Shown here piece after piece: positions 3,870 to 23,424 of a stretch of DNA of 34,307 nt (within the stretch, counting starts at the first letter, position 1; the number at the start of each line of letters is the position of its first letter). The DNA lies in assembly GCA_014380135.1 (NCBI GenBank), contig JACMKN010000206.1, positions 1 through 34,307 on the forward strand. The letters run 5' to 3'. The notes beneath the pieces are model-generated. The model made no database searches. It was given only the letters and a program-made list of their open reading frames with translations, and was not told the DNA's origin. The position numbers were made by a program, and so were the translations under genes. Source of the stretch: Deltaproteobacteria bacterium (GTDB lineage: Bacteria > Desulfobacterota > Desulfuromonadia > Geobacterales > Pseudopelobacteraceae).

Positions 3870-4736
3870 TCAGTTCTTTATCAGCAGGATCAGTTCCATT
3901 CTGTCGCCATCCCCGATATGGATCGGGAAACAGAGCGCCGTATGTCCAGCCGGTACCGGCAGTCCGCCTGTCGGCGGATGAATCGTGACGGGCGGGTCGA
4001 TGTTCATGATAACACCCATCTGGGAAGCCTTGGCAGCCACGTTGCCGCAGACCACGTTGACAAACTCCATGACGGTGTCCTCCAGCACCTCGACCGACTC
4101 GGCCTCTACCGATTCTTCGTGCAGAATCGCTTTGGCCACGGACTTTTGCAGCCCTTCCGAAACCGAAATCAGATAGCGAGCCTCAACGTCTCCGCTGAAA
4201 TCCATGGCTGCCATCATGAAGCTGGGGGGCAGCATCTCGACCGTAACGCACTTGCCGGGGCGAAACTGCAGATCCAGTACGCGGGTGATCATCTTGTAGG
4301 TCAGATCGGCGGTCATTTCCCAGATCTTGCTGTTGGCGATGTTGACAGGGAGTTCGATCCCGTCGGAGATGTACTGGGCCTGATCGGCCTTGAAATCGGC
4401 CAGATGCTGCTGGAGGCTCTCACCGGTCAGCGCACCGACCTGAACCAGTGCTTCGCCGATATACAGGTGGGTGTTTTTCTGGCGGGTGATGACATCATCA
4501 AGCTGTGTGAGTGTCAGAAAGCCCATCTCAACCAGCAGGTCCCCCAGCTTCATGTCCTTGGACATCTGGGCATTGTGGGCCCGCTCGATATCGACCTGGG
4601 TGATGTACCCCATGGATACGGCCATTTCGCCCAGCTTGAGGTTTTTCTGGTCCTGAAGGTCGATTGCGCTGATCAGGGCGTCTCTGGATACGAGGCCCTG
4701 CTCTACGAGAAATTGTCCGAAAAATTTAACAGCCAT
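3870..4736 (-). CDS. CheX-like CheY-P phosphatase domain protein with N-terminal MshEN/GspE-N-like repeats
   Basis: C-terminal half resembles CheX/CheC-family ('VEVLEDTVMEFVNVVCGNVAAKASQMGV...DPPVTIHP...LCFPIHIGDGDRMELILLI'). N-terminal half has four LGxxLVxxGxLT-type repeats. Confidence 0.75.
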   Translation of the reverse strand: MAVKFFGQFLVEQGLVSRDALISAIDLQDQKNLKLGEMAVSMGYITQVDIERAHNAQMSKDMKLGDLLVEMGFLTLTQLDDVITRQKNTHLYIGEALVQVGALTGESLQQHLADFKADQAQYISDGIELPVNIANSKIWEMTADLTYKMITRVLDLQFRPGKCVTVEMLPPSFMMAAMDFSGDVEARYLISVSEGLQKSVAKAILHEESVEAESVEVLEDTVMEFVNVVCGNVAAKASQMGVIMNIDPPVTIHPPTGGLPVPAGHTALCFPIHIGDGDRMELILLIKN

Positions 4737-9398: not shown

Positions 9399-9737
9399 AT
9401 GAACAGCTACTGGAACGACAACGGCACGTATTCCGTTCAAGTGTGTGGTGACTGGACCGTCAATACGGCCGCTGAACACCTGCAGAAAATTGCCCTGCAG
9501 TCGCTCAGCATTTCCGAACGGGCAATGCATTTTATCAAAAGCAACCCTGAAGGAAGGATTGTCACCAAGATCGACCTGAATGGCATTGCCTCTATCGATG
9601 ACAGCGGCTTCAGCATTCTGGCTTTATGGATGAGGCATCTTGAGAAGCACAGATTTTATCCGGTTGTATTTCACGAGGACGCCGCCCTTGCAAGCCGGCT
9701 GAATCATGATTTTGTTTGTGGCAGTTTATTTATATGA
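9399..9737 (+). CDS. STAS-domain-like protein with conserved DDSG motif
   Basis: 'VTKIDLNGIASIDDSGFSILALWMRHLEKH' resembles the SpoIIAA/STAS core; good RBS (GGAGG) upstream. Confidence 0.6.
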   Translation: MNSYWNDNGTYSVQVCGDWTVNTAAEHLQKIALQSLSISERAMHFIKSNPEGRIVTKIDLNGIASIDDSGFSILALWMRHLEKHRFYPVVFHEDAALASRLNHDFVCGSLFI

Positions 9738-9744
9738 GGTTGAA

Positions 9745-10083
9745 ATGATTAGTGAAACTGTTGAAACAACAACTATTCGGCTGGATGGCGACTGGTCCAT
9801 GAGTGGCGTCGCTGAAAAGTTTCCGGTGTTGGAGAAGTGCTTAAGGCATCTTTTGGACTCTGAAGCCTCCGGCGAACGGCAAAAAAGTCCTTCGGTCGGC
9901 ATCCCGGAAATTGACCTGGCGGGAGTCACCGACTTTGATGCCTGCGGCTGCCAGCTTCTGGCCCTGTTTGTCCGCAGCCTGAGACAGAACGGCAGCAGCC
10001 CGTTGCTGCTCAACATGTCTGAAGCTTTCATATCCAGGGTTCATTCTTTAGGGTTTGGGCGCGAATTGAATCTACCACTTTGA
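9745..10083 (+). CDS. STAS-domain-like protein, DACG variant
   Basis: 'IPEIDLAGVTDFDACGCQLLALFVRSLRQNG' parallels the preceding gene; ATG at 9745 chosen (MISETVETTTIRLDGDWSMSG). Confidence 0.6.
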   Translation: MISETVETTTIRLDGDWSMSGVAEKFPVLEKCLRHLLDSEASGERQKSPSVGIPEIDLAGVTDFDACGCQLLALFVRSLRQNGSSPLLLNMSEAFISRVHSLGFGRELNLPL

Positions 10084-10101: not shown

Positions 10102-12204
10102 ATGACCAACTCCGGACAGAATAACAACAGCATAGATCTCAACCAGTTCAATCAGGTCTTTTTTGAGGAATGTGCCGAGCACCTGGCCGGGATGGAGCAG
10201 ATTCTGGTATCGCTGGCCGATGCCGGACCGGATGAAGAGCAGCTCAATGCCATTTTCAGGGCGGCGCATTCGATCAAGGGGGGCGCCGGCATCTTCGGCT
10301 TCCAGGATATGACCGTCGTGACCCATGTACTGGAATCGCTGCTCGACCGTATGCGCAATCACGAGATTCCCTTCAGCACGGCCATGGTAGATCTGTTTCT
10401 GGAAGCCGGCGATGTGATCTCCATGCAGCTGGCCGGGCACCGTGACGGAGCGGAAGTACACCAGGATGCCATTGACCTGATCCGTTGCAAGCTGCAGCAG
10501 GTCATCGATTCGGGCGCTGTCGCCGCTTCCATCGCAGCCGTCGATTCTGAGCGCGCCTCTTCTGATGAGGCGGTCACATGCCTGGATTCCAACGATTCAG
10601 TTGCGGCCTGTTACCGCTACGAACTGGAATTCACCCCGGATCCGGATATCTTCAAGCGTGGTATCCGCCTGGAAAGCCTGTTTGCCGAACTGGAAGAACT
10701 GGGCAAGCTGACCGTGACCGCCGAACTGCAATCCCCGGCTGATTTCAGTACTCTTGATCCGGAAATCTGCAGTAGCTGCTGGCATCTTTCGCTGGAGACA
10801 ACCGCCAGCGAAGCGGATATCCGGGATGTCTTTGAATTCGTGGCGGATGTGGATCAGCTGAAGCTGCTTCAAGTTGCAAATCACCCTGCCGCCGTGGCGA
10901 ATGTGCCGGAAAGCAATCGACTGGATCTGCCCTGTGAAACGGATGGGGACGCTGTTGAAACGGCCGTCGGCAGAAGAATCTATGACAAAAACGAACTGGC
11001 TCCGGGCGCATACGGCCGACGCACAGTTGAAGCTGACTCTTCGATCCGCGTCGGCGTCACCAAGGTTGACCAGCTGATCAATCAGGTCGGGGAGCTGGTG
11101 ATTACCCAGCTGATGCTGGCCCAGACGGCCGCCGGTCTCGACCCGGTACTGCATGAGGGCCTTCACCGCAGCCTGCTGCAGCTGGAGCGCAACACCCGTG
11201 ATCTGCAGCAGAGCGTCATGTCGATCCGGCTGGTTCCGATCAGCATCGTTTTCAGCCGTTTCCCTCGCATGGTGCGTGAGTTGGCCTCAAAGCTCGGTAA
11301 ACAGGTGGAATTGAAAATGGTGGGCGACTCCACCGAACTGGACAAGGGGCTGATCGAGAAAATCAGCGATCCGCTGACACACCTGGTCCGCAACTGCATG
11401 GATCACGCTCTGGAGAAACCCGCGGTACGGGTTGCCGCCGGAAAAGAGCCGGGCGGAACGATCACGCTGCGCGCCTCTCAGACCGGCGGCCGGATTGTTA
11501 TCGACGTAATCGATGACGGAGCCGGGCTAAATCGCGAAAAGATTCTGGACAAGGCGGCCGAACGCGGTATTCCGGCCTGTGAGTCAATGAGTGATGAGGA
11601 GGTCTGGCAGCTGATATTCGCACCGGGCTTTTCCACGGCCGAGGCCGTCACGGATATCTCCGGCCGCGGAGTGGGCATGGATGTCGTGCTGCAAAATGTG
11701 CAGTCGCTGAGCGGCAAGGTCAGCATCGTCTCCGAACCGGGTCAGGGTACGCGGGTTACGATCAGTCTGCCGCTGACACTGGCCATTTTGGACGGGCTTT
11801 CGGTGGCGGTCGGCGACGAGAAGTTCATTATTCCGCTCAGCTCGATCATTGAGTCACTACAGCCGTCAACCGGGAGCCTGAAGAGCGTCAACGGCAAAAA
11901 AGTCGTGCATGTGCGCGGCGATTACATCCCGGTCATTCCGCTGTATGAGCTGTTCAATCTGCCGGCGCTTGTGACGGAACCGGAAAAGGGGATCCTGATC
12001 CTGATCGATGTGGACGGTGAAAAGGCGGCTCTTCTGGTGGACGCTCTGCTGGATGAGCATCAGGTTGTCATCAAGAGCATCGAAACAAATTACCGCAAGG
12101 TGGATGGCACCGCCGGCGCGACCATTCTGGGAGACGGGCGGGTAGCCCTGATTCTGGATGTCAATTCACTACTGCAGATGCAAAAAAAGAAGCTGTCACT
12201 TTAA
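10102..12204 (+). CDS. cheA: Chemotaxis histidine kinase CheA
   Basis: Hpt domain [13 protein letters not shown]; kinase motifs [31 protein letters not shown]-terminal CheW-like domain. Confidence 0.97.
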
Positions 12205-12236
12205 TAAATCTGACTGGAATGGAGGTAGTTCAAATT

Positions 12237-12728
12237 ATGCAGACAGGTCAGGGACTTACTGACAGAAACGGGACCAGCACCCCCGCCGAGTACCTTACCT
12301 TCACGCTGGGTAAGGAAGAATACGGGATCGATATCCTCAAGGTTCAGGAAATTCGCGGCTATGACGTGGTTACTCACATTGCCAACGCTCCGGAGTTCAT
12401 CAAGGGAGTCGTAAACCTGCGGGGCGTGATCGTGCCGATCGTCGATATGCGGATCAAGTTCAAGGTCGGTGTGCCGACCTACAACGAATTCACCGTGGTG
12501 ATCATCATGAATGTGCTGGGGAGAGTGATCGGGATGGTGGTTGACGGCGTCTCGGACGTGGTGGCGCTGGGACCGGAACAGATCAAACCGGCCCCCGAAA
12601 TGGGCACTGCACTGGATACCGGCTACATCACCGGTCTCGGCACCCTGAACGATCAGATGCTGATCCTGGTTGATATCGAAAAGTTGATGAGCAGTGAAGA
12701 GATGCAGGTCATGGATCAGGCAAACTAA
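12237..12728 (+). CDS. cheW: Chemotaxis adaptor CheW
   Basis: '[23 protein letters not shown]...[22 protein letters not shown]...VDGVSDVV'. ATG at 12237 preferred, with GGAGG at about 12221. Confidence 0.95.
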
Positions 12729-12763
12729 TTTAATTTATTACTCATAGAGAGGCGGTAATTTAC

Positions 12764-14503
12764 ATGAAAATCAAGAGCTTTAAAAACTGGAAGATACTTT
12801 CGAAGATTCTCAGCATTTCAATCACCACCATCGTACTGCTGATTCTGGGGGTTCTGTTCTACGTCCTGCCCTACATGGAAAAGCAGCTGCTGAACGAGAA
12901 AATCGCGGCCACCAAGGGTGTCGTTGAAACGGCTTCATCGCTGATCGAAAGCCATCTTCAGGATGCCAAGGACGGGAAGATAACCGTCGAGGAGGCCAAG
13001 GTCCGGGCACTGGAAAACATCAAGGATCTGCGCTACCACGGCAATGAGTATTTCTGGGTCAACGACCTTGAGCCAAAGATGCTGATGCATGGTGTCAAGC
13101 CGGAATTGAACGGAAAAAACGTCGCTGATATCAAGGATCCCCACGGCAAGCAGATTTTCGTAGAATTTGCCAAGGTGGCCAGGGAAAAGGAAGCCGGAAT
13201 CGTCGAATATCAGTGGGCCAAGCCGGGCGCTACACAACCGGTCGATAAAATTTCCTATGTAAAGCTGATCAAGGGTTGGGATTGGGCAGTTGGCAGCGGC
13301 ATCTACGTTGACGATGTCAAGGCGCAAGTGGCAAAGATGCGGCTGCAGATTCTTGGTGGAACCCTGCTGCTGGCGCTGGTGATCTTCGCCTTCGCCTGGC
13401 TGGTTGCCCGCCGGATCAAAGAAGCTCTCGACAAGGCTATCAGTGTATCGGAGCAGATCGCGGCCGGTGACCTGACCGTCAAGATTGAGATCGACAGCCA
13501 GGACGAGACCGGCCAGCTTCTTTCTTCGCTGAAAGAGATGAATGAAGGGTTGGCCCGGATTGTGGGCGAGGTGCGCAGCGGCGCCGATTCCATCGCCACC
13601 GCCACCGAACAGATCTCGGCCGGCAATGCCGATCTTTCCCAACGCACCGAAGAGCAGGCCTCGGCCCTGGAGGAAACCGCCTCCAGCATGGAAGAGCTGA
13701 CCTCCACCGTCAAGCAGAACGCCGACAACGCCCAGCAGGCCAATCAGCTGGCGATCAGCGCCAGCGGCGTGGCGGTCAAGGGGGGCGATGTGATCAACAA
13801 GGTGGTCCGCACGATGGAGTCCATCACCGACAGCTCCCGCAAGATCTCGGATATCATCGGCGTCATCGACGGCATCGCCTTCCAGACCAACATCCTGGCG
13901 CTGAACGCGGCAGTCGAGGCGGCCCGGGCCGGCGAACAGGGCCGCGGTTTTGCCGTTGTGGCGGCCGAGGTGCGAAGTCTTGCCCAGCGCAGCGCCGCTG
14001 CCGCCAAGGAGATCAAGTCGCTGATCGAGGATTCGGTCGGCAAGGTGCAGGACGGCAGCAAACTGGTGGAGGAGGCTGGCCACACGACCCAGGAGATCGT
14101 TACCAGCATCAAGCGGGTGACTGACATCATGGCCGAGATCTCGGCTGCCTCGCTGGAGCAGTCCAGCGGCATCGAGCAGGTCAACACCGCCATCACCCAG
14201 ATGGATGACGTGACCCAGCAGAATGCAGCGCTGGTGGAACAGGCTGCCGCGGCCGCCGAGTCGCTGGAGGAGCAGGCGCAGCAAATGGTGCAGGTCGTGA
14301 CCCGCTTCAAGCTGGAAGAGTCCGCTCAGCCACAAAAAAACGTGTCGGTAGGGAATGCCCGCAAGATTCAGCCGCTGCATCCCGAAATAACTTCAAACAA
14401 GTTCGGCCGGCCGGGCGCACCGAAAAGCCAGAAAAAAGCTGGTTCGCTCAAATTGTCCGCGCCGAAAACGGCAGATGCCGATGATGACTGGAAGGAATTC
14501 TGA
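12764..14503 (+). CDS. Methyl-accepting chemotaxis protein: TM, single Cache_2-like sensor, TM, HAMP, MCP signalling domain; C-terminal DWKEF
   Basis: Canonical MCP tip '[43 protein letters not shown]'; Cache motif '[36 protein letters not shown]'. Confidence 0.96.
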
Positions 14504-14553
14504 TGAGATGCGAGCGGGGGCGAACCCTGATGGTCGCCCGTCGGGAACTGTGA

Positions 14554-15426
14554 ATGCCGGCTGCAATCGATAATATAAAACCGGCCTTCGGAATGTCGGC
14601 TGGTGAAAGGGATCTATATGCATTCCCTTTCACCAGCGAGGACTTCCACCATATCCGCAGCCTGATTTACCGGGTGGCCGGTATTTCCCTGGCCCCCTCC
14701 AAGAAGGACCTTGTCTACAGCCGTCTGGCCCGCCGCCTCAGGACCAGGCAGATCGAATCATTCAGCGCATACATCCGGCTTCTGGAAAGCGGCGACCTGC
14801 AGGAGCGCGAAGAGTTCGTCAACGCCCTCACAACCAACATGACCTCCTTTTTCAGGGAGGCACATCACTTTCCGATCCTTTCCAAACATCTCGGCAGCAT
14901 CTCTAAATCAAATCCGGTCCGGATCTGGACCTGTGCCTCATCCAGCGGTGAGGAACCCTATTCCATCGCCATGACGGTGGTGGAACACTACAAAAATTTC
15001 AACGCCCCGGTCAGTATCCTGGCCACGGACATCGACACCCATGTGTTGGAGAAGGCCCGGCGCGGTGTCTATCCGCTCGATCAACTGCAGAAAATCTCTC
15101 CCGAACAGCTCAAACGCTTTTTCCTGAAGGGTGACGGAATAAATGCCGGTTTTGCCAAAGTCCGCCCTGAACTGCAGCAGATGATCACCTTCAAACGCTT
15201 CAACCTGCTGGACGAACAGTGGGGGCAGCGCGAAAAATTTGATGTAATATTCTGTCGCAATGTGATGATCTATTTCGACAAGGATACCCAATATGCTATC
15301 CTGAAAAAAATGCAGCCCTGCCTGCAGCCCCACGGGCTCTTCTTTGCCGGTCATTCGGAAAGTTTTCATCACGCTGCCGACCTGTTCAGGGTCTGCGGCA
15401 AAACTGTCTATTCGCCGAAGGCCTGA
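14554..15426 (+). CDS. cheR: Chemotaxis methyltransferase CheR
   Basis: '[17 protein letters not shown]', '[17 protein letters not shown]', '[14 protein letters not shown]', 'GHSESF'. Confidence 0.95.
14599..14637. repeat. Perfect 14-bp inverted repeat inside the cheR 5' coding region
   Basis: GCTGGTGAAAGGGA-tctatatgcat-TCCCTTTCACCAGC. Confidence 0.8.
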
Positions 15427-15431
15427 CGCAT

Positions 15432-15992
15432 ATGCACAGAGGTCGATATTTTTCCACCAGCAGTTATTATGACCGGATCTTTGCCGCAAAAGCCGTAAAA
15501 ATACTTCCCGGCCAGTACCATGCAACCGGAGATGGTACGGTCATCACGACCGTGCTGGGGTCGTGCGTATCGGTTTGTCTTTACGATGCCGTCAACGGTG
15601 TGGGCGGTATGAATCATTACATGCTGCCGAGCGATGCGGGTGCGCTTCGCAATTACGGAAACGGCTCCGCCCGCTATGGAAACCATGCCATGAACCTGCT
15701 GCTTGAACATGTTCTTCAGCTGGGAGGTAAACGTGCCAATCTGGAGGCAAAGGTTTTCGGCGCCGGCAGAGTCATGGAGGGCATGAGCGATGTCGGCAGG
15801 CAGAATGCAAGTTTTGCGCTGCGCTACCTGAAGGAGCAGAAGATACGGGTCGTCGCGGTCGATGTGGGTGACACTTTTCCGAGGAAAATTTGTTTTTCGC
15901 CGGTCTCCGGGCAGGTGTTTGTCAAACGGATTCAGCCGCAGCCCCTTTCTCCCGAACTTTTTGCACCATTGTATGTAAAGACAGCCGGGTGA
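15432..15992 (+). CDS. cheD: Chemoreceptor glutamine deamidase CheD
   Basis: '[28 protein letters not shown]' (catalytic Cys and His) and '[10 protein letters not shown]'. Confidence 0.95.
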
Positions 15993-15996
15993 CGAT

Positions 15997-17088
15997 ATGT
16001 CCATCAAAGTTCTGATCATAGATGATTCCGCCCTGATCCGCTCCATACTGAGCGAAATAATCAACCGACAGCCGGATATGGAGGTGGTGGGAACCGCACC
16101 CGACCCGCTGGTGGCCCGCGAGAAGATCAAGGCGCTCAACCCGGATGTGCTGACCCTGGACGTGGAAATGCCGAAAATGGATGGCCTGGCGTTTCTGGAG
16201 CGGCTGATGCGGCTGCGCCCGATGCCGGTGGTGATGGTGTCGTCCCTGACCGAAAAGAGTTCCTCGATTACGCTGCATGCCCTGGAGTTGGGCGCCTTCG
16301 ATTTTGTCACCAAACCCAAACTCGACATCCGCAACGGCCTGCAGGAGTATGCCGAGGAGCTGACCGACAAAATCAGAGGGGCCGCCAAAGCGCGCCTGCG
16401 ACGTCCGGTATCAATGGGTGCTGCGCATGTTTCGGTTGAACAAAAAAACTCGGCCGACGTCGTGCTGGCTGCCGAGCACCACAAATTTTCCACAACCGAA
16501 AAGGTCATACTGCTGGGCGCTTCCACCGGCGGCACCGAGGCGCTCAAAACAGTTCTGGTTGATATGCCCCCCGATTGTCCCGGAATTCTGATTACCCAGC
16601 ATATGCCGGAAGCCTTCACCAAGACCTTTGCAAAGCGCTTGGACGGCCTCTGCAGGATAGCGGTAAAAGAGGCTGAACATGGTGAACGGGTATTGCCGGG
16701 GCATGCCTACCTGGCCCCCGGCAATCGTCACCTGCTTTTGAAAAGAAGCGGCGCCAATTATGTCACCGAACTTTCCGATGGACCGACAGTCAGCCGCCAC
16801 CGGCCATCGGTGGATGTGCTGTTCCGCTCGGCCGCCAATTGTGCCGGTAAAAACGCGATTGGAATCATCATGACCGGCATGGGGGATGACGGCGCAGCCG
16901 GCATGCTGGAGATGCATCAGGCCGGGGCATACACGCTGGCCCAGGACGAGGAAAGCTGTGTTGTGTTCGGTATGCCAAAAGAGGCGATTGCCAGAGGTGG
17001 CGTTGATGAGGTGGTGCCACTGCAGGATCTGTCCAGACGCCTGTCCGCCTGGTTGTCATCCCAGGGGAAACGCGGCTTCAGGGTGTGA
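15997..17088 (+). CDS. cheB: Chemotaxis response regulator / methylesterase CheB
   Basis: REC ([18 protein letters not shown]...[13 protein letters not shown]) plus methylesterase domain ([32 protein letters not shown]). Confidence 0.97.
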
Positions 17089-17124: not shown

Positions 17125-17523
17125 ATGGATGCCAAGGTGATGCTGGTCGATGACGATGAGATGATCAGGGAGTCGGTTGAAATGTTCTTTCAGTCAGTGG
17201 GAGTAAAGATCCTGACTGCATCCGGGTGCGATGAATGTATCGACCATCTGGAGGAGGGCTTTCGGGGGGTGATCCTGATGGATGTCATGATGCCTGAAGT
17301 AAATGGCTGGGATACGATCCGCAAGATTGTGGAGAACGATCTCTACGATGGCAACATTATTGTCATGCTCACCGCTCTGGATGCGCCCGACAATAAAATG
17401 GATGGTATTCAGGAGTATGTCACCGACTATCTGACCAAACCGTTTAATCCGGATGAGCTGATGGAAATCCTCCAGTATTATTTCAGCCTTCTGAAGGTAG
17501 CGTACCCTGACAAAACTCATTAG
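17125..17523 (+). CDS. Single-domain response regulator
   Basis: KVMLVDDDEMIRESVEMFFQS...GVILMDVMMPEVNGWDTI...MLTALDAP...YLTKPF. Confidence 0.9.
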   Translation: MDAKVMLVDDDEMIRESVEMFFQSVGVKILTASGCDECIDHLEEGFRGVILMDVMMPEVNGWDTIRKIVENDLYDGNIIVMLTALDAPDNKMDGIQEYVTDYLTKPFNPDELMEILQYYFSLLKVAYPDKTH

Positions 17524-17602: not shown

Positions 17603-19396
17603 ATGGAATTGCTGACGCAGTGGCGGGACAGGATCCTGCCTACAATCGATATAATCAAGCGGACCGCCGGCACGACCGAGGACGAGTTTTTGCAGATCGG
17701 TGCCCGTCTGCAGGAGTTTTATGCAAAGTCGCAGGAGAGCTCCCGGCTGGCACACCGGCTTGTGGATCTGGTCAGTGATGATGACTACCACGCCTTGGTC
17801 GCTGGGTTGCGGCGAATGACTGACGAGATGGCTGAGTATCTGGAAGCCTCACGACTTCAGAACCGGGAGAGTTGTGATTCCCTGGAACAGGTTCTGGAAC
17901 TACTGGAAACGGTTTCCCAGCCACTGGCCGCGTTCAAAAAAATGGATAAAACTCTGCGGATGCTGGGTATTTCCACTAAAATCGAGAGTGCGCGGCTGGG
18001 GGAAGCGGGCAATGGATTTATGAGCCTGGCCGTGGATGTTGGAAAGCTGTCCTGCCTGGTACGTGAAAAAACCGATTCCATCCGGATCCAGCGTGAGCTT
18101 CTAGGCAGCGTGCTGGCCAAACACCTGCAGGTGGGGAAAGCAAGCAAACTTCTCCAGACTAAGGAAGCTTGTTCCATGCTCAACGCTGCTACGATCAGTT
18201 TTGACGAACTGGCAGATCTGAATGCCCGTTGTTCAAGTTGCGGAGAGCTGGCTGGCCAGGTATCCGGCGAAGTTTCTTCCTCAATCAGCGAAGTGGTCTC
18301 CTCCCTGCAGATCCACGATATGATGCGTCAGCAGATGGAGCATGTCAGCGAAGCGCTGGAACGGCTGGCATGCGAAGTGGATACCACATTGGCAATAGAG
18401 TGTGATGACGAGCGGCTCGCAGCGGCGGTGGGGCAGGTTGGGGATGTTTGTGAATTACAGGTGGCACAGGTGCAAAATGCCACCAATGAACTGCACGAAG
18501 CGGTCGTCTCCGCCATTGACAACCTGCACGATATCGGAGAGCGGCAATCACTGCTGTCCTGTGAAATCATGAATGCCACCGGCAGCAACGGCGCCTCGGA
18601 AAACTCCTTTTTTACCGATTTGCGTAATGTTTTCTCCGATCTCGGTGCCGTACTGCGCAAATGTGCCGAAACGGATCGCCTGTTTTTTGCGACCCTGGGG
18701 AAAGTGGCCGAAACCATTAGTGAAATCTCCGGATTTGTCAGCAGTATTGAAGAGGTCAGCACTGAAATCAATCTTATCGCACTGAACGCCCAGATCAGGG
18801 CTGCCCACACCGGTCAGGATGGTGTGGCACTGGGAGTGCTGGCCGAGGGGATCAATTCACTTTCCAAGGTGGCAGCGCCACAGGCCAATGAACTGTTGCG
18901 GACTTTGTCCAGCATCAGCGTGCTGACCGATACCCTGGTCAGTAAGGCTGAATGCGAACTGGCCGTACTGGGCGAACGGTTGACCGGCATGGAGGAAAAA
19001 TCCGATAAAACTGTTTCGTCACTGGAGCAGATGAATGAAAAGATCAGCAGGCTGCTTGTGGATCTGGTTGGCAGTGTGGGAGAGCTGAATGAGGATATCC
19101 GGCAACTCACGTCTGGTATCACAGTACATTACTCCGTGGCAGAGCTTACCAGGTCGGTAGCTTGTGAGTTGAACGAGGTCGTGTCTCAGGCGCGGGAGCG
19201 GGTGCCGGCCACCAACGAATTCCATGAAAACCTGCGCCACATGGCGAGTCGTTACACCATGCAGAGTGAACGGCGCATCCACGAGGCAATTGCTCGCCGG
19301 CACTCGGGTGCTGCTGAAGATTCTGTTGTGAATTCCATGGAATACGCGGACAGTGGCGGTGACTCGGAATTTGGTGATAACGTGGATCTTTTCTGA
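17603..19396 (+). CDS. Soluble MCP-like coiled-coil protein with two degenerate MCP-tip-like segments
   Basis: No obvious TM segment. 'LRMLGISTKIESARLGEAGNGFMSLAVDVGKLSCLV' and 'INLIALNAQIRAAHTGQDGVALGVLAEGINSLSKVA' both resemble the MCP hairpin tip. Confidence 0.65.
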   Translation: MELLTQWRDRILPTIDIIKRTAGTTEDEFLQIGARLQEFYAKSQESSRLAHRLVDLVSDDDYHALVAGLRRMTDEMAEYLEASRLQNRESCDSLEQVLELLETVSQPLAAFKKMDKTLRMLGISTKIESARLGEAGNGFMSLAVDVGKLSCLVREKTDSIRIQRELLGSVLAKHLQVGKASKLLQTKEACSMLNAATISFDELADLNARCSSCGELAGQVSGEVSSSISEVVSSLQIHDMMRQQMEHVSEALERLACEVDTTLAIECDDERLAAAVGQVGDVCELQVAQVQNATNELHEAVVSAIDNLHDIGERQSLLSCEIMNATGSNGASENSFFTDLRNVFSDLGAVLRKCAETDRLFFATLGKVAETISEISGFVSSIEEVSTEINLIALNAQIRAAHTGQDGVALGVLAEGINSLSKVAAPQANELLRTLSSISVLTDTLVSKAECELAVLGERLTGMEEKSDKTVSSLEQMNEKISRLLVDLVGSVGELNEDIRQLTSGITVHYSVAELTRSVACELNEVVSQARERVPATNEFHENLRHMASRYTMQSERRIHEAIARRHSGAAEDSVVNSMEYADSGGDSEFGDNVDLF

Positions 19397-19463: not shown

Positions 19464-19829
19464 ATGGCAAAATTAATTATGACCGCCGATGATTCGGCCA
19501 GCGTACGTCAAATGGTAGCTTTTACTCTCAAACAGAACGGCTATGACGTGATTGAGGCAGTGGACGGCAAGGATGCCCTTACCAAGCTTGGCTCGCAAAA
19601 AGTGGATATGCTGCTTACCGACCTCAATATGCCGAATCTGGATGGTATCGGTCTGATCAAGGCGGTGCGGGGAGGGACGCTCAACCGGATGATCCCTATT
19701 GTCATGCTAACCACCGAATCCCAGGATTCCCGGAAGTCCGAGGGGAAAACGGCTGGCGCCACCGGATGGATCGTAAAGCCGTTCAAGCCGGAACAGCTGA
19801 TTGCTGTCGTGAAGAAAGTTCTCGGCTAA
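19464..19829 (+). CDS. cheY: CheY-type response regulator
   Basis: IMTADDSASVRQMVAFTLKQNGY...DMLLTDLNMPNLDGIGLI...MLTTESQ...GATGWIVKPF; AGGAGG RBS upstream. Confidence 0.92.
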   Translation: MAKLIMTADDSASVRQMVAFTLKQNGYDVIEAVDGKDALTKLGSQKVDMLLTDLNMPNLDGIGLIKAVRGGTLNRMIPIVMLTTESQDSRKSEGKTAGATGWIVKPFKPEQLIAVVKKVLG

Positions 19830-19866: not shown

Positions 19867-22434
19867 ATGATGAAATCTATTACCAAATACAATATGGCAA
19901 GTTCTCTTGTTGCCATTCTGCTCATTACAATGTTTGGGGTTTACTCCCTCAGCCATTACAATGCGCGTGAAACCTTGGAAGAAAATGAAAAGCTTGAAGC
20001 GTGTATAAAAACCTTCTGGCAATTGCTTTCGAACAAGGGGACCGATTTCATGGTTGTAGACGGTAAGCTGCTGGCCGGCACGTATACTGTCAATGGCAAC
20101 TTCGAGCTGCCGGACAAGGTACAGGAGATATTTGGCGGGACGGCCACGATCTTCATGGGGGACGAGCGGGTTTCAACCAACGTACTGACCGCCGCTGGCA
20201 AGCGGGCTGTGGGCACCAAACTGGTAGGCCCGGCCTACGACGCCATTTTCAAACAGGGAAAACCGTATCGTGGTGAGACGGCCATACTCGGGATTCGCTA
20301 CCATACGGCCTACGACCCCATCCGGGACCGCACCGGCAAGATCATCGGCGTTCTCTATGTCGGGGCCAAAACCAGCGTATTACTGTCCAGTCTGTCCGAG
20401 CTTCAAATGCATCTGACCATGATGCTGGCTGGCATTGTGGCGGTCTTCATTATCTTCATGGTATTACTGGGCCGGTCAATGAGGCGGGCTGAAGAGGCTA
20501 ATGAAAGTCATATCAAATTTCAGCAGACCCTGATCGACACGATTCCCATCCCCATTTATTACAAAGATGCTGACTGCCGTTATATCGGCTGCAACAAGGC
20601 TTTTGAGGAGTATGTCGGATTCTGCCAGGAAGAACTGATCGACAAAACGCCCCATGAACTTTGGCCAGCGGAGTTGGCGGAACGCTATCGGCAACAGGAT
20701 CGGGCCCTGCTGGAAAATCCCGGCCTGCAGGTTTATGAAGCCACCGTCAAGTATGCCGATGGCACCCTGCGTGACGTGATTTTCAATAAGGCCACTTTCA
20801 ATGAAAGCAACGGTTCTGTGGGAGGACTGGTGGGCGTTGTTCTTGACATCACCGAGCGCAAAGCGGCCGAAGAGGCCGTCCTGTTTCAGAATATTCTGCT
20901 TTCAACGCAGCAGGAGGCCTCCCTTGATGGAATTCTGGTGGTTGATGAAAACGCAAAAATACTTTCGTTCAACAGTCGCTTCGTGGAAATCATGGCTATT
21001 CCTGCCGAATTGCTGGAAACAAAGAACGACGAACCTGTCTTGAAGTATGTGACTGGCAGGATGATTGACCCCCAAGCCTTTCTGGAGAAGGTGCGTTACC
21101 TGTATGAAGATCGGATGATCTGCTGTCGGGACGAGATTGGCCTTTGCGATGGCAAAACTCTGGACCGTTACACTGTCCCGCTGTTGGGGGATAACGGGCG
21201 CTATTATGGCCGGCTTTGGTCCTTCCGCGACATCACCGAACGCAAGGCGGCCGAGGAAGTAACCAGGAACGCTTATCAGCAGCTGCAGGACATCGTGGAG
21301 TTTCTGCCGGATGCCACATTTGTCGTGGATAAGGATAAACGGGTGATTGCCTGGAACCAGGCGATTGAAAAAATGACCGGACTGAAAAAAGAGGATGTGA
21401 TCGGCAAGGGCGATTACGTCTATTCAATACCCTTCTATGGAGAGCGTCGCCCGATTCTGATTGATTATATCGATGAGGATCTTGAGTTTATCAGACGTAA
21501 ATATGCCTATATCAATGTAGAAGGCAGAACCCTTTTTGCAGAAACCAACATTCCTTCATTCCGCAATGACGGTCCCTGCCATCTGTGGGCTACCGCTACG
21601 CCTTTATTTGACGGTCAAGGTAATCAGGTGGGCGGGATCGAATCCATCCGAGACATTACCGAATACAAACGGTCGGAGGAAGAACAGTCCCGTCTGGTAG
21701 CGCAACTGAATCAGGCACGTATGATGCGTTCTTTCATGGTCAGGTTGAGCCATGATCTGAAAACACCGCTGACCCCCCTGCACATTCTTTTACCGATGAT
21801 TATGGCGCGTGTCGAGGACCCTGAACTTAAAAAGATGCTGGATCTCTGTTTTAAAAACACCATAATAATAAAGGAACTGACGGACAAAACCGGAACGCTT
21901 GTCAAGCTCTCCTCCGATATAAAACCGTACGAACTTGAGCATATTCAACTTGCTTCATTGCTTGATGAAAGCCTGGCCGTGTGCGCCGGTGCTTTTGCCG
22001 GTGATGGGGGCAGTTGCAAAAACGGGATTGATCCGGCGATTGTCGTCCAGGTTGTAACATCTCAGATAAAAGAGCTCTTCACGAATCTGATCTCGAACGC
22101 TGTGCGTTATTCGCACGTGAACAGGGACATTTGCATTAATGCTGATATTAGTTCCGAAACTGTAACGGTATCGGTTATCGATAAAGGTATTGGTTTGGAT
22201 CAGGCTCATCTGCAAATTATCTTTGACGAGTTTTTCAAGGTGGATGAATCACGCCACGATCTTGAAGCATCCGGCCTGGGACTCTCGATCTGCAAGCGCA
22301 TAGTGCAGAATCACGGCGGAAGGATATGGGCTGAAAGCGCTGGACTGGGGTACGGCACAAGCATTATGTTCACGCTCAATCAGCAGTTTAAATGTGATGG
22401 TAACACTCAAAAGGAGAGGGCAGGTAATGAATAG
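19867..22434 (+). CDS. Membrane sensor histidine kinase: Cache-like periplasmic domain, three PAS domains, HisKA-like, HATPase
   Basis: N-terminal TM; Cache-like 'GGTATIFMGDERVSTNVLTAAGKRAVGTKLVGPAYDAIFKQGKPYRGETAILGIRYHTAYDPIRDRTGKIIGVLYVG'; repeated PAS C-termini 'DITERKAAEE'; SHDLKTPLTPL; ASGLGLSICKRIV. Confidence 0.9.
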   Translation: MMKSITKYNMASSLVAILLITMFGVYSLSHYNARETLEENEKLEACIKTFWQLLSNKGTDFMVVDGKLLAGTYTVNGNFELPDKVQEIFGGTATIFMGDERVSTNVLTAAGKRAVGTKLVGPAYDAIFKQGKPYRGETAILGIRYHTAYDPIRDRTGKIIGVLYVGAKTSVLLSSLSELQMHLTMMLAGIVAVFIIFMVLLGRSMRRAEEANESHIKFQQTLIDTIPIPIYYKDADCRYIGCNKAFEEYVGFCQEELIDKTPHELWPAELAERYRQQDRALLENPGLQVYEATVKYADGTLRDVIFNKATFNESNGSVGGLVGVVLDITERKAAEEAVLFQNILLSTQQEASLDGILVVDENAKILSFNSRFVEIMAIPAELLETKNDEPVLKYVTGRMIDPQAFLEKVRYLYEDRMICCRDEIGLCDGKTLDRYTVPLLGDNGRYYGRLWSFRDITERKAAEEVTRNAYQQLQDIVEFLPDATFVVDKDKRVIAWNQAIEKMTGLKKEDVIGKGDYVYSIPFYGERRPILIDYIDEDLEFIRRKYAYINVEGRTLFAETNIPSFRNDGPCHLWATATPLFDGQGNQVGGIESIRDITEYKRSEEEQSRLVAQLNQARMMRSFMVRLSHDLKTPLTPLHILLPMIMARVEDPELKKMLDLCFKNTIIIKELTDKTGTLVKLSSDIKPYELEHIQLASLLDESLAVCAGAFAGDGGSCKNGIDPAIVVQVVTSQIKELFTNLISNAVRYSHVNRDICINADISSETVTVSVIDKGIGLDQAHLQIIFDEFFKVDESRHDLEASGLGLSICKRIVQNHGGRIWAESAGLGYGTSIMFTLNQQFKCDGNTQKERAGNE

Positions 22435-22819
22435 GAAAGTAATGCTTGTTGATGATGAAGCCATGATCAGAGAGGCCGTTGAGATCCTTTTTCAGTCAGA
22501 GGGACTGGATATTACTACTGCCTCGGGCGGGGAAGAATGCCTGGGTCTTCTGAAGGCGGGTTTCAGGGGGGTGATTTTGATGGATGTCATGATGCCCAGA
22601 ATGGACGGTTGGAGTACAATCCGCAGAATAGTGGAAGACGAACTCTATGAAGGCAACATAATCGTCATGCTGACAGCCTTGGAGGCACCTTGCGCCAAGA
22701 TGGATGGGTTGCAGGAGTATGTCACCGATTATGTTACCAAGCCATTTGATACGAATAACCTGCTGGATTCCATCCAATATTATCTGAGTCTTCTGCAGAC
22801 GGAGGAGGATGGACCATGA
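22427..22819 (+). CDS. Single-domain response regulator, paralogue of 17125-17523
   Basis: MNRKVMLVDDEAMIREAVEILFQSEGL...GFRGVILMDVMMPRMDGWSTI...GNIIVMLTALEAP...YVTKPF; start ATG 22427 after AAGGAGA. Confidence 0.9.
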   Translation: MNRKVMLVDDEAMIREAVEILFQSEGLDITTASGGEECLGLLKAGFRGVILMDVMMPRMDGWSTIRRIVEDELYEGNIIVMLTALEAPCAKMDGLQEYVTDYVTKPFDTNNLLDSIQYYLSLLQTEEDGP

Positions 22820-23424
22820 CCAATACGAATATTGTCATGATCGGGGTTTCAACGGGCGGACCGATCGTTCTCAAGCGCCTATTCGGCGAACTGCCACAGT
22901 TGGACGCTGCTTTCGTGATAGTGCTGCACATTCCGCCCGGTATGGATTACCGGATTGCCAAAAGTCTGGCGAGCGTGGCGGCAATGCCCGTGGCTCTGGC
23001 CGAGGATGGCGACTATCTTCGCAGCGGGCAGATCTATCTCGCCCCGGGAGGTTTTCACCTGAAACTGGAAGGCAACAGCCGCATAATCCTGGAGGAGGGG
23101 CCACGGGTAAACTTTGTTCAGCCTTCCGTTGATGTGGCGATGAAATCACTGCTAAAGCCGCTGAAACGGGGACGCATGATCGGTGTCATCCTGACCGGCA
23201 TGGGCCGGGACGGAGCCGAAGGGATTCGGCATATCAAGGATCTGGGAGGCACCACATTCGCACAGGATCAGGAATCATCGGCCATCTACGGCATGCCGCA
23301 GGCCGCTGCCGAAACCGGTGCGGTCGATTTCGTGCTTCCTCCCGAGAAGATCGGCCGCAAGCTGGTGGAACTGCTTTCCTGCCGCTTGGGCGAACAGCGC
23401 TTGGCCCCTGCCGTTAGCCATTAA
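22816..23424 (+). CDS. CheB-type methylesterase domain protein lacking a receiver domain
   Basis: GVSTGGPIVL (Ser), VIVLHIPPGMD (His), LTGMGRDGAEG (Asp): complete triad motifs; only 202 aa. Confidence 0.9.
   Translation: MTNTNIVMIGVSTGGPIVLKRLFGELPQLDAAFVIVLHIPPGMDYRIAKSLASVAAMPVALAEDGDYLRSGQIYLAPGGFHLKLEGNSRIILEEGPRVNFVQPSVDVAMKSLLKPLKRGRMIGVILTGMGRDGAEGIRHIKDLGGTTFAQDQESSAIYGMPQAAAETGAVDFVLPPEKIGRKLVELLSCRLGEQRLAPAVSH

Follow-up and report, generated by a model that had tools for sequence, protein, structure and literature searches.

TWIN, a soluble protein of tandem chemoreceptor-like hairpins with a CheZ-type DxxxQ helix, as a candidate CheY~P phosphatase

A chemotaxis cluster in the window (the whole 34,307-nucleotide stretch of DNA analysed, to which all positions refer) encodes a protein, named TWIN here, that joins two hairpins of the methyl-accepting chemotaxis protein (MCP) type to a helix bearing the DxxxQ signature of the CheY~P phosphatase CheZ (Table 1). 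On the evidence of sequence comparison, we give an even chance to the proposal that TWIN would be a dedicated phosphatase for CheY~P, working like CheZ but on a framework of chemoreceptor hairpins, with the CheY encoded at 19464 as its target. A literature search confined to freely accessible papers, preprints aside, did not find such a protein reported. If the proposal is true, TWIN would add a new phosphatase architecture to those of CheZ, CheC/FliY and CheX, and termination of the signal could be physically tied to receptor-type hairpins, with a bearing on the origin of CheZ.

Table 1. Features of TWIN and of its gene neighbourhood (window positions)
Feature	Residues	Position	Strand	Basis or remark
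TWIN		17603..19396	+	597 aa, soluble, tandem MCP-like hairpins and CheZ-type DxxxQ helix
Hairpin 1	about 60-262	17780..18388	+	internal repeat; AF2 model; Foldseek
Tip 1	116-150	17948..18052	+	alignment to Tsr contact positions
DxxxQ helix (putative catalytic)	228-255	18284..18367	+	68/68 conservation; CheZ D143/Q147 register
Hairpin 2	about 331-533	18593..19201	+	duplicate of hairpin 1, offset +271
Tip 2	387-421	18761..18865	+	alignment to Tsr contact positions
Degenerate counterpart of DxxxQ helix	499-526	19097..19180	+	repeat alignment; no Q
YTMxSERxxH motif	551-560	19253..19282	+	nearly invariant in family alignment
C-terminal peptide GDNVDLF		19373..19393	+	after disordered linker; N593 and F597 invariant 68/68
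Partner CheY		19464..19829	+	121 aa; D+2 = N, T+2 = E, as E. coli CheY
Other receiver, upstream of TWIN		17125..17523	+	D+2 = M, T+2 = L; not conserved partner
STAS-domain protein		9706..10083	+	upstream of cheA in window
cheA, cheW, MCP (ends DDDWKEF), cheR, cheD, cheB		10102..17088	+	same cluster as TWIN

The lack of an evident transmembrane segment, remarked on in an earlier note on this DNA, is borne out by a Kyte-Doolittle mean that peaks at 1.16 over 19 residues. TWIN has no sensor domain, and a search for the methylation motif [EQ][EQ]xxA[ST] found none. The Pfam MCPsignal model matches it at 49.5 bits (cut-off 34.6) over two stretches, which in a search of the own genome score 44 bits for tip 2 (18689-19123) and 19.8 bits for tip 1 (17948-18307). 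Since tip 1 by itself falls below the cut-off, default annotation of TWIN would display one domain; TWIN genes would normally be annotated as methyl-accepting chemotaxis proteins, so that the class could easily be overlooked. The hairpins constitute an internal duplication, as hhalign matches residues 40-261 to the second half of the chain without a long gap (97.7%, E 2e-12, 222 columns, offset 271). AlphaFold2 predicts an all-helical protein (pLDDT 83.4, pTM 0.60) with disorder at ~569-590, before the tail. For residues 30-300 (pLDDT 88.8) the best Foldseek fit is the Tm14 soluble chemoreceptor (3g67_B, TM 0.75 on target), whose hairpin is matched with an rmsd of 3.5 over 207 columns. DSSP assigns helix continuously through the tips; the top Foldseek matches are nevertheless solved chemoreceptors, in keeping with the hairpin tips that the earlier note expected structure prediction to reveal. 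CheZ was absent among the Foldseek matches listed, and covariation over 116 distinct sequences was too shallow to give usable contacts.

Both tip sequences quoted in that note are present, and their description as degenerate holds family-wide at the receptor contact positions. Of Tsr residues F373, E385, R388, R394 and V398, which we take to be the canonical contacts of the tip, tip 1 lacks F373 (K116 at the equivalent position), R394 and V398 (S141), and retains the equivalents of E385 and R388. Tip 2 lacks F373, E385 (reversed to K/R) and R394 (A/V), and has L at the equivalent of F396. The TWIN tips thus keep the fold of a receptor tip, but not its canonical contacts. The repeat alignment sets H238-D239 opposite a family consensus H509-E510 and leaves Q243 without a counterpart, so that each chain carries one DxxxQ; its retention in hairpin 1 only leads us to interpret TWIN as a pseudo-dimer made in one piece, with a single active site. 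E128 of tip 1 is matched by K/R399 at the equivalent place in tip 2, a pairing that would fit pseudo-dimer packing.

These features bear on the twin-tip scaffold put forward in the earlier note, a role like that of DosM of the F9 class. Tandem double signalling domains without a sensor are the described DosM architecture (PMC9321776), and the demonstrated duplication and solubility of TWIN suit an array scaffold or adaptor whose two tips bridge or stabilise a cytoplasmic array, the DxxxQ being merely structural or used for docking. Such a role is nevertheless unlikely, as canonical contact residues are missing from both tips, the cluster encodes a single-domain CheW of 169 aa rather than the triple CheW of F9, and a scaffold leaves both the invariant polar DxxxQ and the constant CheY neighbour unexplained. 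Judged from the sequences, duplication and altered tips are easier to reconcile with a pseudo-dimer formed by one chain, its two tips lying at the same end, than with a scaffold that has a tip at either end.

Full-length TWIN relatives occur in most of the 58 related genomes searched. In a 297-genome sample of the phylum, 38 genomes had matches, which in 29 covered all or almost all of the protein, and a scan of ~85,000 species genomes confirmed 353 relatives, of which 80 were kept, including members from Geomonas, Geotalea, Citrifermentans, Oryzomonas, Trichlorobacter, Desulfobulbaceae, a Syntrophus and one Ignavibacteriaceae MAG. The last of these (L201), from outside the phylum, shows the order TWIN-CheY-CheA and is likely a case of horizontal transfer or mis-binning. 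Conservation was assessed on 68 full-length members across the phylum, the most divergent sharing 24% identity with TWIN of the window. The CheZ-like segment between the tips to which the earlier note drew attention (SSLQIHDMMRQQMEHVSEAL, residues 233-252) is present, and conservation, profile alignment and gene context all back it: Q236, D239 (codon 18317-18319), R242, Q243 (codon 18329-18331) and H247 are invariant in all 68, and position 238 is H in 60 and Q in seven. Such invariance in a diverse family makes the D239/Q243 motif more than chance. For catalysis CheZ and NarX depend on D and Q (PMC3510030). The motif is absent from PcaY_PP (6s18), to which hairpin 1 is significantly related in the PDB.

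In spelling, the family motif S[LM]QFHDITRQ recalls QDFQDLTGQ of E. coli CheZ, and the Q that can replace H238 is the CheZ letter. A profile built from E. coli and Desulfobacterota CheZs was run on 6,134 ORFs within ~10 kb of 87 TWIN genes, including 80 MCPs, 83 CheA and 50 kinases. It returned 32 matches at E<1, comprising 31 of the 87 TWIN proteins and one of the 80 MCPs (best whole-sequence E 2e-5). Single-domain scores were 13-17 bits in the cases inspected, where the alignments run through D..Q, and no true CheZ was detected by this profile in the 87 neighbourhoods. With hhalign, TWIN 209-261 falls on CheZ 113-165 over 53 columns, pairing D239 with D143 and Q243 with Q147 (E 0.0003-0.003 for one comparison, probability 10-39%). 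When ~1e5 ungapped registers are ranked, the D239-D143 register comes first at each of the widths 13, 21, 31 and 41, and masking D and Q at width 31 lowers it to sixth place; a reversed-sequence control outscores it at width 21, though not at 31, so that the ranking is support rather than proof. A PDB search with the motif segment alone gave chance matches only. TWIN has no match to the Pfam CheZ model (PF04344) over the curated cut-off; across 25 genomes of the order the model makes sub-threshold matches, all <30.7 bits, on seven family members. Of the two profile relationships that the earlier note singled out for checking, that to MCPsignal therefore clears its threshold, whereas that to CheZ does not, even if its catalytic residues align. 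The similarity to CheZ is real but weak and, with Pfam matches confined to sub-threshold scores, it is CheZ-like working that is claimed and not CheZ membership.

The same evidence bears on whether TWIN could be a degenerate cytoplasmic chemoreceptor that feeds CheA and carries DxxxQ by chance. An MCPsignal score above the Pfam cut-off, best fold matches that are chemoreceptors and similar strings in ordinary MCPs (e.g., SIND[IV]TRQ in four of 117) would all suit this explanation. It is none the less highly improbable for a protein with altered tips and neither sensor, transmembrane segment nor methylation motif, in a family with invariant D and Q that the CheZ profile favours over neighbouring MCPs.

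Gene context supplies the presumed substrate. Of the 81 loci that extend far enough downstream, 78 have CheY as the next che gene; of the other three, one has a CheA there, one a kinase and one no che match. All 78 partner CheYs carry N at D+2 together with E at T+2, and their mean identity to the window CheY is 85%. In relatives (L127-L206) TWIN and CheY are often separated by a STAS-like gene of ~115 aa. Whereas both neighbouring receivers had been put forward as targets, CheY 19464 is the likeliest, since it adjoins TWIN family-wide and its active site is like that of E. coli CheY; receiver 17125 belongs to another type. The constant link with a single, highly conserved CheY and the invariant tail peptide could also point to a sink or delivery protein without catalysis, which would bind CheY~P through its tail and DxxxQ face and so control how it is passed to CheA or the output. 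We regard this as improbable, because binding alone would not require both D and Q, which are catalytic in CheZ and NarX (PMC3510030).

In the window and two near relatives (L127, L137) the TWIN-CheY pair stands at the cluster end, and the three TWIN proteins form one clade (support 1.0); the closest relative has a second TWIN copy in the usual TWIN-CheY-CheA place (L142). An E. coli-like Type 1 cluster has been described in Geobacter (PMC2577667), and the window cluster, whose MCP ends in DWKEF, is of that kind. One clade at the end of a Type 1-like cluster and a second copy in the usual place suggest that the pair is mobile as a unit; cheY/cheZ moved as a unit in the history of F7 (PMC7184735). 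Further along the window, an ORF at 22816-23424 (+) encodes a CheB-like catalytic domain without a receiver, and the adjoining receiver gene (22394-22819) looks like a paralogue of receiver 17125.

A further family trait is the C-terminal tail, which ends in [DE][LFI]F in 87 of 87 TWIN-family ORFs of the neighbourhood set and in none of the other che genes. A tether for CheR/CheB was ruled out as its role: CheR-tether C-termini such as DDEFEKF and DDDWKEF are found in 66 of 80 neighbouring MCPs, while among the 87 TWIN tails none fits xWxxF and seven fit x[FY]xx[FY]. Being unlike these tethers, the tail is predicted to be a different docking peptide. CheZ has a linker followed by a CheY-binding C-terminal helix (PMC7750401).

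The proposed phosphatase might work as follows. The two hairpins would pack side by side, so that one chain forms a four-helix bundle and the two tips share an end, and the tail peptide would capture CheY~P in the manner of the C-terminal helix of CheZ. The active site of CheY would then receive D239 and Q243, D pointing towards the CheY lysine and Q orienting the attacking water, so that hydrolysis becomes faster. The altered tips may place the enzyme at the CheA/CheW/receptor array, or regulate it from there.

The best independent support for the phosphatase reading is that motif, tail and CheY neighbour turn up together again in proteins of another build. These are six MCPs (L237-L242), each about 425 aa long and encoded immediately next to CheY in the CheA-CheY clusters of relatives. 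Five of these have a canonical tip, followed ~114 residues on by QFQD[VI]xRQ, and a tail ending in [IL]ELF, and four of the five contain YVMxxQR, resembling YTMxSER; the sixth (L242) spells the motif differently and was grouped by sequence search and position. Two of the six are among the matches of the Pfam CheZ model in the 25 genomes, one of them being the best of all. Neither DxxxQ nor the tail is a general MCP feature, as only nine of 117 canonical-tip MCPs contain a similar string. The four with SIND[IV]TRQ are PAS-type MCPs (L220, L221, L224, L235) without an E-L-F tail; the string lies at nearly the same tip distance and may be a related motif or a coiled-coil coincidence. A broader, speculative and on balance doubtful idea is that CheZ and chemoreceptor signalling hairpins share ancestry, in which case TWIN and the canonical-tip membrane receptors with QFQD..RQ and E-L-F would make up an unrecognised receptor-phosphatase class, the receptor scaffold itself ending the signal.

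In agreement with the earlier note, which had seen no canonical cheZ in the cluster, neither the own genome (78.7% complete) nor any of 24 relatives yields a CheZ that clears the Pfam cut-off. Replacement of CheZ by TWIN at the genome level is, however, rejected, because 13 of the 29 phylum genomes with a full-length TWIN match also carry CheZ, and CheZ is not missing more often from TWIN genomes than from others of the phylum. Some CheZ proteins of the phylum (L243-L249) are 404-689 aa long because the two halves of the CheZ hairpin are separated by a large insert, which in several includes a similar FQTxYELCTNE segment. CheX-domain proteins are present both in the own genome and in the window; a phosphatase is thus not missing outright, and TWIN is not the sole possible one. 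The window example, at 3870-4736 (-), carries a C-terminal CheX domain (55.8 bits) and also matches CheC weakly; its EFVN fits the ExxN catalytic motif, making it a possible second CheY~P phosphatase ~13 kb upstream. cheZ is lacking from Geobacter genomes, for which the need for a CheZ-independent mechanism has been stated (PMC2577667). TWIN, adjoining the relevant CheY, is a testable candidate for that mechanism, and may be a means of switching off the CheY signal in Geobacter and other bacteria that have no CheZ gene.

Among known systems, CheZ (PF04344) is approached through F-[QH]-D-[LI]-T-x-Q on a helix following a hairpin, in D143/Q147 register, a flexible linker, a C-terminal peptide ending in F and a gene beside cheY. 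TWIN differs from it in length (597 vs 214 aa), in having MCP-type hairpins with a recognisable tip and one DxxxQ per duplicated chain, in a tail ending [DE]LF rather than LGF, and in a tip-to-DxxxQ distance of about 107-108 residues (R131 to D239), as against ~40 in the CheZ hairpin of about 130. With MCPs (PF00015) it shares signalling-domain homology and the hairpin fold, but not transmembrane segment, sensor, methylation motif or tip contacts. DosM, going by its published description, likewise has tandem receptor signalling hairpins without a sensor domain, yet reportedly takes part in trimers that include other receptors at both baseplates, whereas the TWIN tips are degenerate; the triple-domain CheW of the F9 class is also absent from the TWIN cluster. 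HisKA_3 kinases such as NarX contain an HDxxxQ string in which DxxxQ is required for phosphatase activity, but identity as such a kinase was rejected, since H238 is found in 60 of 68 members and is not invariant, and Pfam detects no HATPase match, and hence no ATPase domain, on TWIN. CheX, CheC and FliY would do the same job as that proposed for TWIN, with an unrelated fold and an ExxN motif.
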